Source: a virus
IMG/VR virus record: IMGVR_UViG_3300030329_001608
Span: 1-38,886 of that record
Reading direction: 5' to 3' (one strand)
Length of the DNA stretch: 38,886 nt
Below are positions 11,461 to 38,340 of the stretch, piece by piece. Positions within the stretch are counted from its first letter, which is position 1. Every line of letters begins with the position of its first letter. The notes beneath the pieces are model-generated. The model had not been told where the DNA came from. It searched no databases and saw only the letters and a program-made list of their open reading frames with translations. Both the position numbers and the translations under genes were made by a program.

Positions 11461-11693
11461 GATTGGTATGCGTAGAGTGGTTAGACATCTACGCATCAGC
11501 AGGGTGGGAAAAAGAAGATGAGATAGAGCCGCAAACCTTTTGGTCTATCGGATACCTCATCGTTAAAGACTCAAGGGTGCTGAAGATTGCCAACACCAAG
11601 GATGTGGAGGACAATTACTTTGGTATCACTGCCTTCCCCATCGGTTGCGTGGTGTCCATTACTGATATTCCCTCGACAGTTTCCGCTGAGTAA
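11457..11693 (+). CDS. Small conserved phage protein (78 aa)
   Basis: It starts in an ATGA overlap with the giant gene, so it is probably translated from the same message. The protein opens with VEWLDIYASAGW and continues with acidic residues and a 'SIGYLIVKDSRVL' strand. That layout resembles small phage proteins of unknown function that pair a Trp-Leu-Asp motif with a short beta domain. There is no signal peptide. Its last 35 bp overlap tail-to-tail with the metallophosphoesterase gene on the other strand, marking the convergence of two transcription units with no obvious terminator between them. Function is unknown. Confidence 0.75.
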   Translation: MRLVCVEWLDIYASAGWEKEDEIEPQTFWSIGYLIVKDSRVLKIANTKDVEDNYFGITAFPIGCVVSITDIPSTVSAE

Positions 11694-12441
11694 CGGCAAC
11701 TATCTCGTCGTAGTAACCCTCACCATCTAGTTGGTTTAACATAATCACTCCTCTCCACCACTGATGCTCAGTGTCTCTGCACCAGTTCTCAGAGTACTTG
11801 GGGTGACTATAGCATCCGGCACTAAGGCCGAATATTTTCTGGCCGTCAGGCCTCGTCTGTTCAGCGTGGTTGTACAAATGGGTGTGACCCTGTACCGCAC
11901 TACAATGTAGTTTGGAAACCAGTGTGAAGCCAAGGTGGACGCTACTGATGGGCCTTCCAGATATGCCAGAGGTAAAGTAATGGCTGAAGGATATCCCTGC
12001 CACAGTCAGCACTGACTTGAAGGGAGTAACCTTCCATCCATTCTTCTCATACTGCAAGTCCTTAATACCTATAGCACCATCCAACTCAGGGGCAGAGTTA
12101 GTCGCCCTGCTGATGCGATCTTCATGGTTTCCAAGACACATGTGCATCTTGGGCTTGTACTGCTTATCTTTGTTCTTTCTCTTCTGGGCGTTGTACGCCC
12201 TCAACGGTTCCATAAGTTTCTCTTGGGCTTCAATACAACTATTTATATCTTTCTTATAGCGTTTGCCTTCAAAGCCTTTGGTTCCCTTGTCATATGAAGA
12301 TAGTGATGGCATGTCAGCAAAGTCACCCAGACATACTATGTACTCTGGCTTGTGAGCCACAATGAACTTACCCAGATGGGTAAACCTTTCATTGTCATAG
12401 TCTGGGTTGGCATGTGCATCAGGAATTATTAGCAAGTTCAT
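11659..12441 (-). CDS. Calcineurin-like metallophosphoesterase
   Basis: A 260-residue cytoplasmic protein with the ordered metal-binding motifs of the calcineurin-like phosphoesterase superfamily: D8-x-H10, GDFAD starting at G39, GNHED at 104-108, an isolated His at 154 and GHTH at 185-188. Together these supply the two-metal site that hydrolyses phosphoesters. The substrate cannot be read from sequence; phage members may act on nucleic acids or nucleotides. It is the last gene of the leftward operon, starts in a 4-bp overlap with the YkgJ-type gene and overlaps the 78-aa gene from the opposite strand by 35 bp. Fold confidence is high; substrate is unknown. Confidence 0.9.
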   Translation of the reverse strand: MNLLIIPDAHANPDYDNERFTHLGKFIVAHKPEYIVCLGDFADMPSLSSYDKGTKGFEGKRYKKDINSCIEAQEKLMEPLRAYNAQKRKNKDKQYKPKMHMCLGNHEDRISRATNSAPELDGAIGIKDLQYEKNGWKVTPFKSVLTVAGISFSHYFTSGISGRPISSVHLGFTLVSKLHCSAVQGHTHLYNHAEQTRPDGQKIFGLSAGCYSHPKYSENWCRDTEHQWWRGVIMLNQLDGEGYYDEIVAVTQRKLSREYQ

Positions 12442-12767
12442 TTAGCGATCTCCAATACTTTGTTGTACTGTTCCCTGTTGTTACTGACCTTGGCCCATGC
12501 GACACAGTTAAAGTCCCTACACATTTGAGGACGATCCTCGTATATGCCACACTTGTAGTTATCTACTAGGTGAGAGCATCTAATCTTGATGCCAGTTTCT
12601 GTGGCTTCAATGTGGTCATGCTTTTCTACTATGGCATTTAACCAATGCATCTTCCTTGGGTCTTTCCAACTAGGATTGATTTCAATCTCGCAACATAAAG
12701 CGCACTTGGTACACAGGCTCTCAGTTATGTCACTCTCTTGTAGGGGCCAACGGCTATTGGGCTTCAC
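12438..12767 (-). CDS. CxxCxxCC metal/Fe-S-binding protein (YkgJ family)
   Basis: A 109-residue protein with the signature cluster C19-x2-C22-x2-C25-C26, followed by C64, C73, C83 and C88 in a 'GIYEDRPQMCRDFNC' context. This is the pattern of the CxxCxxCC/YkgJ family, thought to bind zinc or an iron-sulfur cluster. Its biochemical role is poorly known even in bacteria. Length is close to the short members. It overlaps the metallophosphoesterase by 4 bp and the upstream 76-aa gene by 14 bp, so it belongs to the nucleotide and recombination operon. Presence with a phage IscA-type protein in the same window is notable. Confidence 0.85.
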   Translation of the reverse strand: MKPNSRWPLQESDITESLCTKCALCCEIEINPSWKDPRKMHWLNAIVEKHDHIEATETGIKIRCSHLVDNYKCGIYEDRPQMCRDFNCVAWAKVSNNREQYNKVLEIAK

Positions 12768-36081: not shown

Positions 36082-36330
36082 ATGGAAACATTATTTGTGT
36101 TAGTTCTCTATATCAACGGAGTAGCCAAAGAACACATGGCCTATTGGGAAGACCCAGTTGTAAAAGAATGGGTGGAGATGGGGCTACCGGGATGCCTTGC
36201 TATGAAGCGAACCCTAAAACGACAGGGATGGCACGACAGCGAAGGCGGTAGATATGCTTGCGAAAAGCGCACAGTAGAAACTAGAATAGATTGGGAAGGC
36301 AAGAAGGTTATTGCAAGGATCATTGAATGA
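36082..36330 (+). CDS. Hypothetical protein (82 aa)
   Basis: Directly follows the previous stop (TAAATG). Starts METLFVLVLYINGVAKEHMA, hydrophobic at first but not a standard signal. Later charged with two Cys (GCLAMKRTLKRQG and YACEKRT). Similar short proteins occur in phage lysis regions. No function can be given. Confidence 0.6.
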   Translation: METLFVLVLYINGVAKEHMAYWEDPVVKEWVEMGLPGCLAMKRTLKRQGWHDSEGGRYACEKRTVETRIDWEGKKVIARIIE

Positions 36331-36506
36331 AACATTTAAAGGAGCAGAATGAAACGTATTTGCAACACTTACGAAAAGCAATGTACTTTGCTGGCTGTCT
36401 GTTGGTTGGGAGTCTGTGCGCTTTCGCTCATGCTCTTGTTCCATGCGTTTTAACTAAGACAACTACTAATTTAATTAACCACATTCAATCCAGATTGGGA
36501 GGGTAA
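36327..36506 (+). CDS. Small membrane protein (59 aa)
   Basis: ATG 36327 overlaps the previous stop (ATGA). The N-terminus is polar (MKHLKEQNETYLQHLRKAMY) and the middle has one membrane span, about residues 19-40 (MYFAGCLLVGSLCAFAHALV). A small holin-like or accessory lysis role is possible from size and span. A Thr/Ile/Asn tail follows. Confidence 0.6.
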   Translation: MKHLKEQNETYLQHLRKAMYFAGCLLVGSLCAFAHALVPCVLTKTTTNLINHIQSRLGG

Positions 36507-36515
36507 TGAACCACA

Positions 36516-36827
36516 TTGGTAATAACTCAGAAAGCACAGGATCAACTAAACCACTTGCTAGAGGATGGAGAGGTTTTAGAAATAGGCTTAAGAGGTGGTG
36601 GATGCAATGGCCTTATTGTGACTCTAGAGAAGACGATCTCGACAGGCACTACCCAACTGAGCATTGGCGAAAACACCAAATTCGCAGATCAGATGTCGCA
36701 GACATACTTACAAGGCGGTAGCCTTGACTACGAAGATACAGGATTTTCTAAAACGTTTGTGGTCAATCCAAGTGAAGGTACAGCAAGATGTGGATGTGGT
36801 AATAGCATCGCTCTTCCAGAAGTGTAA
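36516..36827 (+). CDS. A-type Fe-S carrier (IscA/HesB family)
   Basis: A 103-residue protein with the three family cysteines C30 (GGGCNG) and C92/C94 (RCGCGNS), equal to C35, C99 and C101 of IscA. It would hold a [2Fe-2S] or [4Fe-4S] cluster and pass it to client proteins. The frame is closed by TGA three codons before the apparent TTG start at 36516; GGGAGG lies about 12 bases upstream, closer to an out-of-frame ATG at 36506. The TTG start fits the family's 'VITQKAQDQL' beginning. Phage-borne IscA is known in marine phages as an auxiliary metabolic gene. Confidence 0.85.
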   Translation: MVITQKAQDQLNHLLEDGEVLEIGLRGGGCNGLIVTLEKTISTGTTQLSIGENTKFADQMSQTYLQGGSLDYEDTGFSKTFVVNPSEGTARCGCGNSIALPEV

Positions 36828-36854: not shown

Positions 36855-36950
36855 GTGAAAGAAAAATGGAAAGCACTACCAAAGAAAACAAAGATGTGGA
36901 TTCTAATTGGCGTGGCCGCGTTTATCGTAGCCTCTGCTATCTGGGGCTAG
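36855..36950 (+). CDS. 31-residue membrane peptide
   Basis: GTG 36855 has AGGAG six bases upstream. The peptide starts MKEKWKALPKKTKMW, basic, and continues with a membrane span (ILIGVAAFIVASAIWG). It overlaps the start of the lipoprotein gene in another frame. It may be a mini-holin or a coupling peptide. Confidence 0.6.
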   Translation: MKEKWKALPKKTKMWILIGVAAFIVASAIWG

Positions 36951-37312
36951 TTCTAGGAGTTATAGGATGCGGGACGATAAAGAAAGCGGGAGTGGTAGCG
37001 ACAGCGGCAGGGACGGGTGCAGTTGCGGGGACTGTACTCAGTGGGGGTGTGATTGCACCTATAGCGGGAAGCATGACAAGTGCCTTTGTGGCAGATGTGG
37101 TGACGGAGGTGACGGGTTCGTCCCGCACTACTATGGATAGCGGCTCCTGCGCTCCTGATAACTTCTGGAGTTTGCTTGGCTCTATGGCTGAGATGGGCGG
37201 TTGGTTGCTCATTCTCGTAGTTATTATTCCAATGGTACTTGGATGGTTTTTACCCGGACCTGTTAAGATGAAAGGCAGAGAGCCTAAACACCCTAATCCA
37301 CTTATGAGATGA
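36866..37312 (+). CDS. Lipoprotein with C-terminal membrane segment
   Basis: A 148-residue frame with a lipobox (LVLGVIGC, Cys35 from ATG 36866) followed by a Gly/Ala/Thr-rich middle and a hydrophobic segment near 112-129 (GWLLILVVIIPMVLGWFL). A GTG at 36896 would give a shorter signal (25 residues) and is a fair alternative; neither start has a good ribosome site, and coupling to the 31-residue peptide is likely. The stop overlaps the next start (ATGA). Such proteins are common in marine phage lysis regions; an outer-spanin-like role is possible but the C-terminal membrane segment is unusual. Confidence 0.65.
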   Translation: MESTTKENKDVDSNWRGRVYRSLCYLGLVLGVIGCGTIKKAGVVATAAGTGAVAGTVLSGGVIAPIAGSMTSAFVADVVTEVTGSSRTTMDSGSCAPDNFWSLLGSMAEMGGWLLILVVIIPMVLGWFLPGPVKMKGREPKHPNPLMR

Positions 37313-38340
37313 AAGAATATATAAAGGACTGTCTTAAATCTTTCAGTGGTGTGCTTTTATATGTGTGTGTATTATTTTGTATAATATACGCATCAATAGC
37401 ACAATCTGACATTTACGGATCAAGAGCAAGTTTTCTTTTACACAATGATCTGCGTAATTGGATGAGTCTATCGTACTTATCTACTAATGTAGATGATGCG
37501 TGGCGTAGGAGAGTAGAGAACGCCCTAATTAATCAAGGTGACACTCATATCTATATCTATTCTCAAAATGGAGATGACGGCATTGGGAATGTTTCGCCTC
37601 AATCTGATTGGGAACTTAGATTAGATCATCTTAACAACAAAGGTCTGCGTCCTGTCATGTGGTTAATGGCAGATGATTCTCCTAACTTAGCATCCAAGCC
37701 TCTCTCCTATCACAAGTCTCATAACTCTGAGATGGTTCGGAGGTTTGATGACAAGGTAGATGGATATGTTATTGGGCTTGAAGTAGATGAATATTGGTCA
37801 GCGGCACAAGTAAGAGAGATGGTTGCCGATTTAAAGACCAAGACAAACAAACCTGTTGGTGTGCATCTTACTCCCGGTATTAAGCCGGGATACCTTGACA
37901 ATGCTGATATAATATATCTGCAAACAGGTTTTGGACTAAATGAAGCACAATTCCGGGCAAGGGTAAAAGAGGGGTTGGCTTTAGGCAAGCCTGTGGTAGT
38001 GGCCGAATACCATATGGATTCTTCTTCAACTGTTGCAAAAAGATACGGAGATATTGCATGCCAAATGGGGGCGATAGGGACAGGAAACGGAAGGAACGTA
38101 GCCCTGTGCGGCCAGAAAACAATAAAGAAAAAAGAGTGGTATCAGGAATACGAGAAAGAGTTGATCGTTACTGGGATCGCCGCAGTCACCCTTTACGCAA
38201 TATTAAATAGAAATGGAAAAGACCCAACCTTTGAACTTTATGCGAATGATAATGGGTACGAAGTTGGAATGAAATCAGGTGGGTACAATTTAAGGTACTC
38301 AGAAGACAAGGTAATGGCTACATACAGGATAGAATTTTAA
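37309..38340 (+). CDS. Exported TIM-barrel-like glycosidase candidate
   Basis: A 343-residue protein with an N-terminal membrane or signal anchor at about 13-31 (SGVLLYVCVLFCIIYASI). The body alternates strands and helices: 'RPVMWLMADD', 'DGYVIGLEVDEYW' with E158 and E161, 'KPVGVHLTPG', 'ADIIYLQTGFG', 'GKPVVVAEYHMDS' with E233. Two Glu at strands four and seven are the pattern of clan-A glycosidases. A second hydrophobic stretch lies near 288-305. It could degrade cell-wall or surface glycans in lysis or entry. Family not confirmed. Confidence 0.6.
   Translation: MKEYIKDCLKSFSGVLLYVCVLFCIIYASIAQSDIYGSRASFLLHNDLRNWMSLSYLSTNVDDAWRRRVENALINQGDTHIYIYSQNGDDGIGNVSPQSDWELRLDHLNNKGLRPVMWLMADDSPNLASKPLSYHKSHNSEMVRRFDDKVDGYVIGLEVDEYWSAAQVREMVADLKTKTNKPVGVHLTPGIKPGYLDNADIIYLQTGFGLNEAQFRARVKEGLALGKPVVVAEYHMDSSSTVAKRYGDIACQMGAIGTGNGRNVALCGQKTIKKKEWYQEYEKELIVTGIAAVTLYAILNRNGKDPTFELYANDNGYEVGMKSGGYNLRYSEDKVMATYRIEF

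Follow-up and report, generated by a model that had tools for sequence, protein, structure and literature searches.

A-type iron–sulfur (Fe-S) carriers of the SufA/ErpA type are known from marine phages (PMC5332604, PMC9038755, PMC10580990). As far as the accessible parts of these reports go, the carriers come from uncultured marine phages and are of the PF01521 type, as is the one considered here, and a second reading frame is not described in those parts; the present family, in contrast, is divergent and has a conserved overlapping ORF. Marine phage auxiliary metabolic genes of this sort are usually read as one gene with one borrowed function.

Overlapping genes are common in viruses (reviewed in PMC8227390). 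Overprinted viral genes resemble the present locus in that an existing gene is read in an alternative frame to give an extra protein, but here the product is an orphan, and the two frames start only 4–16 nt apart in most relatives. The embedded spanin genes Rz/Rz1 of lambda (PMC6139136, PMC5295617) also consist of a small gene, often unannotated, lying on the same strand within another gene in a different frame; here, however, the outer gene encodes a metabolic-type carrier rather than a spanin, and the hidden protein has no lipobox. In E. coli, two adjacent start codons (AUGUG or GUGUG) were shown to yield both frames (PMC9841429), with starts 2 nt apart, whereas the distance here is 10 or 4 nt and the conserved overlap extends over about 70 codons. 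Overlapping phage genes and phage A-type carriers are therefore already known, and what is unusual at this locus is the depth of conservation: a carrier gene of a borrowed type bears a second frame in two deep clades, on about a hundred contigs of uncultured phages. In a search of openly available papers, neither of the two hidden ORFs reported below was found described.

The carrier gene and its overlapping frame

The window, i.e. the whole stretch of DNA analysed, is a 38,886-base IMG/VR virus record that includes genes for terminase, primase-helicase, class II ribonucleotide reductase, SSB and NinB; a search of named phages returned no close relative of this virus. The features discussed here are collected in Table 1.

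Table 1. Features of the window discussed in the text.
Feature	Position	Strand	Product and start	Basis or remark
YkgJ-type putative zinc/iron-chelating protein	12438..12767	-	GTG start	PF03692, E=2.2e-9
DUF6356 membrane protein	36327..36506	+	59 aa	PF19883, E=3.6e-16; directly 5' of the hidden ORF
GGGAGGG ribosome-binding-like site	36497..36503	+		Sequence
Overlapping ORF, candidate hidden gene	36506..36721	+	71 aa, ATG start	+2 frame relative to IscA
IscA/ErpA-type A-type Fe-S carrier	36516..36827	+	103 aa, TTG start	Family profiles, fold model, Cys ligands
Single-helix membrane ORF	36855..36950	+	31 aa, GTG start	Conserved in relatives
Lipoprotein-like ORF	36866..37312	+	148 aa	Lipobox VIGC, C-terminal hydrophobic segment
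AGGAG	36955..36959	+		Sequence; precedes the ATG of the Cys-rich ORF by 7 nt
Second hidden ORF, Cys-rich	36967..37140	+	57 aa	Nested in the lipoprotein-like ORF

The IscA ORF matched PF01521 (E=2.9e-5) with 24.7 bits, narrowly below the curated cut-off of 26.3, and TIGR00049 (E=2.1e-13) with 50.4 bits, narrowly below the cut-off of 58.8; it also matched phrog_17776 (E=6.4e-13). A profile built from the IscA alignment matched solved A-type carriers over its full length (HI1723, E=6e-11; E. coli IscA, E=3e-8). The AlphaFold model (pLDDT 81) resembles the structures of IscA and SufA, with TM scores of 0.67 to 1r94 and 0.73 to 2d2a. The original prediction of an IscA-type gene with three intact Fe-S ligands agrees with these profiles and with the fold, and also with the invariance of Cys30, Cys92 and Cys94 (codons 36603-36605, 36789-36791 and 36795-36797) in 22 sequences. 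Family, fold and ligands agree that the product is a divergent A-type Fe-S carrier, for which cluster binding and transfer are predicted functions. Placement within the IscA, ErpA and SufA subfamilies was not achieved, in that every equivalog model scored far below its cut-off, the ErpA model scoring best.

It had been proposed that TTG is the only plausible start of this gene, and that an ATG ten bases earlier in another frame is better served by the ribosome site. Both points hold. TTG is the earliest possible IscA start, because an in-frame TGA lies at 36507-36509. The GGGAGGG site, with spacing counted from GGAGG, is separated from the ATG by about 3 nt and from the TTG by about 13 nt, and a GGAGG/AGGAG-like site is also present in most relatives. 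In addition, the stop codon of the DUF6356 gene (TAA, 36504-36506) has one base in common with the hidden ATG (TAATG), which suggests coupled translation.

The same arrangement was found in related viruses. Relatives were retrieved by IscA queries and not by the hidden frame, and 47 related start regions were compared, a set that includes the window and contains a few contigs more than once. The hidden frame is open for 69-73 codons in 45 of these 47 close viral IscA records, and the only records in the set that lack it are the two with a GTG-start IscA (L014 and L016). Where IscA starts with TTG (37 records), the hidden ATG always lies 10 nt upstream of that codon; where it starts with ATG (eight records), the distance is always 4 nt. 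Relatives with a normal ATG, put forward earlier as an observation that would speak against the unusual start, do therefore exist, but the hidden ATG remains there as well, 4 nt upstream. The TTG itself is kept across a lineage (37 of the 47 start regions), and since the spacing of the hidden ATG follows the type of IscA start, it can be regarded as characteristic of a lineage and linked to how the two starts are arranged. When the hidden protein was used as the query, every locus found was of this same two-frame kind. The remaining alternative frame contains 9-14 stops in each close relative carrying the hidden frame.

Absence of stop codons from the hidden frame

Because each hidden codon begins at an IscA wobble position, a stop can arise in the hidden frame only if that wobble is T and the next two bases are AA, AG or GA. 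Among 21 non-redundant close relatives (clade 1), T was found at none of 290 such stop-making wobbles within the overlap, compared with 299 of 732 (41%) at the other wobbles of the overlap. Just 3' of the hidden stop, T occupies 120 of 198 (61%) equivalent stop-making sites, and 38% of the other wobbles of the IscA tail. A count by columns gave 0/18 versus 31/45 (Fisher p=2.6e-7). Eighteen ordinary genes of the window, taken as controls, showed no avoidance (812/2017, 40%, versus 1815/4380, 41%).

The frame might be open by chance, or by recent common descent in sequences whose composition happens to avoid T. Synonymous shuffles gave probabilities of an open frame from 2.5e-4 to 1.6e-2 per sequence, so that in single sequences the chance value reaches 1.6%; moreover, the synonymous sites of clade 1 are unsaturated, and a comparison restricted to independent close pairs yields only p=0.018 for stops, with no signal for conservative change. 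Against this, T is frequent both at all the remaining wobbles of the stretch and immediately past the hidden stop. In tree simulations where only IscA was constrained, a mean of 3-9 of the 21 tips were open, and all 21 were open in none of 2700 runs, including those with an open root and a T-poor composition.

A second, distant clade (clade 2), whose IscA is 35% identical to that of the window, was first met at loci retrieved through a neighbouring ORF. Eighty of its loci were then retrieved with an IscA alignment, and 60 non-redundant ones were analysed over a fixed region, without being picked for openness. T was present at 17 of 611 stop-making wobbles versus 591 of 1846 (32%) other wobbles, while stop-making sites in the tail had T in 71 of 164 cases (43%). 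The hidden frame was open in 52 of the 60 loci, against 6.2 expected. Stop avoidance is thus repeated independently in clade 2, at fourfold sites that are near saturation, and we consider chance or descent an extremely improbable explanation.

The frame is absent from eight of the 60 clade 2 loci, six of which form one terminal group of the tree. On a quick protein tree, which leaves the point of origin of the frame unsettled, this looks like a loss and not an original absence. Some members of clade 2 have no obvious start near the hidden frame.

Proposed expression and possible role of the two products

The reading that we favour, and hold with considerable confidence, is that 36506-36827 comprises two overlapping genes on the same strand, the hidden frame being selected and translated. 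Ribosomes that terminate on the DUF6356 gene, or that GGGAGGG recruits, would initiate at the ATG and produce a 71-residue basic, probably helical protein, while other ribosomes would initiate at the TTG ten bases further on and produce the A-type carrier with its three Cys ligands. Initiation at the ATG would dominate and that at the TTG would be rarer, so that one message could give two proteins with no need of a frameshift. We infer that both frames are translated, with a ribosome site common to both. This reading also accounts for the odd TTG start. Dosage may be limited by a weak start, as originally suggested, but this leaves the open, conserved second frame unexplained.

A fusion of both frames into one protein by programmed frameshifting had also been envisaged. 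The frames do overlap, and the hidden ORF ends with AGG CGG TAG beside IscA codons where a +1 shift would continue. However, a -1 slippery heptamer is absent from the window and none is conserved in the relatives, and each frame owns a start codon. Furthermore, a late fusion would drop Cys30, and if the frames were joined close to their starts, about 70 stop-free codons would be unnecessary. The frameshift idea did not find support in these data, and we regard it as very unlikely.

It is also conceivable that the translation of the hidden frame, and not its product, is selected, and that ribosomes initiating at the strong ATG serve as a decoy or a coupling device setting the level of IscA made from a weak start, in line with the original dosage idea. 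The starts lie 4-10 nt apart, the ribosome site is nearer to the ATG, and the TTG of one arrangement is weak, all of which would suit such coupling. The residues of the hidden protein point the same way, as they give no clear sign of constraint: measured against a tree null in which stops were forbidden, residue conservation showed no clear excess (z about 0 for identity and 1.5-2.5 for invariant columns). Synonymous divergence in the overlap was not lower than in the IscA tail, and in clade 1 the silent sites of the tail past the hidden stop (36720-36827, codons 69-103) are as conserved as those of the overlap. On the other hand, some 70 stop-free codons would be superfluous for this purpose, for which an early stop would do equally, and the frame is open even where IscA starts with a normal ATG. 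We therefore judge a purely regulatory frame to be improbable. Under the two-gene reading, the hidden protein itself, beyond its translation, would be under selection, and since selection has kept the frame stop-free in two deep clades, this protein is very probably of importance to the phage.

The hidden protein is small, basic (pI 9.6-10.9 across relatives, 10.5 in the window) and rich in Arg and Trp. AlphaFold predicts three helices for it with low confidence (pLDDT 56), and searches of family libraries and of the PDB returned only insignificant matches to ribosomal proteins. As for its role, our guess would be an accessory factor made alongside the carrier, e.g. one that partners IscA or binds nucleic acids.

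The test employed here, i.e. the search for T missing only where a stop would result, is cheap and may be used on other phage genes. The same approach led to a neighbouring hidden ORF with eight invariant cysteines.

The downstream cysteine-rich ORF and other genes

Downstream of the carrier gene lies a lipoprotein-like ORF for which family searches gave no significant match. With its lipobox and C-terminal hydrophobic segment it has the same layout as a unimolecular spanin (PMC6139136), which is a resemblance only. Its start and signal region are overlapped by the single-helix membrane ORF, which puts three frames to use in a stretch of about 130 bases.

The 57-residue Cys-rich ORF nested in the lipoprotein-like ORF has eight conserved cysteines in the pattern CxCxxCx4CxCx8CxCxxC, each of which can be encoded only if a given wobble base of the outer gene is T. 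In 21 of 21 relatives, T is present at all eight. A count of wobbles inside this ORF was dropped as circular, the region being bounded by its own stop, and an invariant-column test was used instead: wobble columns were invariant at 8/8 cysteine positions versus 6/32 elsewhere (p=3.9e-5). In viral contigs 162 relatives of the ORF were found, many with no IscA nearby; among 48 further loci that were checked, the eight-Cys pattern was present in 47 and the outer frame was open in all 48. The ORF had no match in the family libraries or solved structures searched. Because selection at the residue level is plain here, this is the stronger of the two hidden genes.

One could imagine a compressed Fe-S module in which the carrier passes a cluster to the eight-Cys miniprotein and both act together with the hidden basic protein, with the overlapping frames placed beside possible lysis membrane genes. 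This is a speculative proposal, and one that we would not expect to prove right.

The YkgJ-type gene noted earlier in the same phage is confirmed by its PF03692 match. Together with the carrier, its product might sustain Fe-S clients in the infected cell, as was originally proposed. The protein contains a CxxCxxCC motif, and the gene adjoins a metallophosphoesterase gene (11659-12441).

Two further observations may be recorded. In the 343-aa ORF at 37309-38340, 88 codons of the +2 frame are free of stops, a longer run than every other control gene shows. Finally, one relative (L068) has the hidden frame and an IscA 75% identical to that of the window; its contig, 15.8 kb long, was binned as a Flavobacteriales MAG (TMED123), which is possibly a hint to the host or else a binning error.
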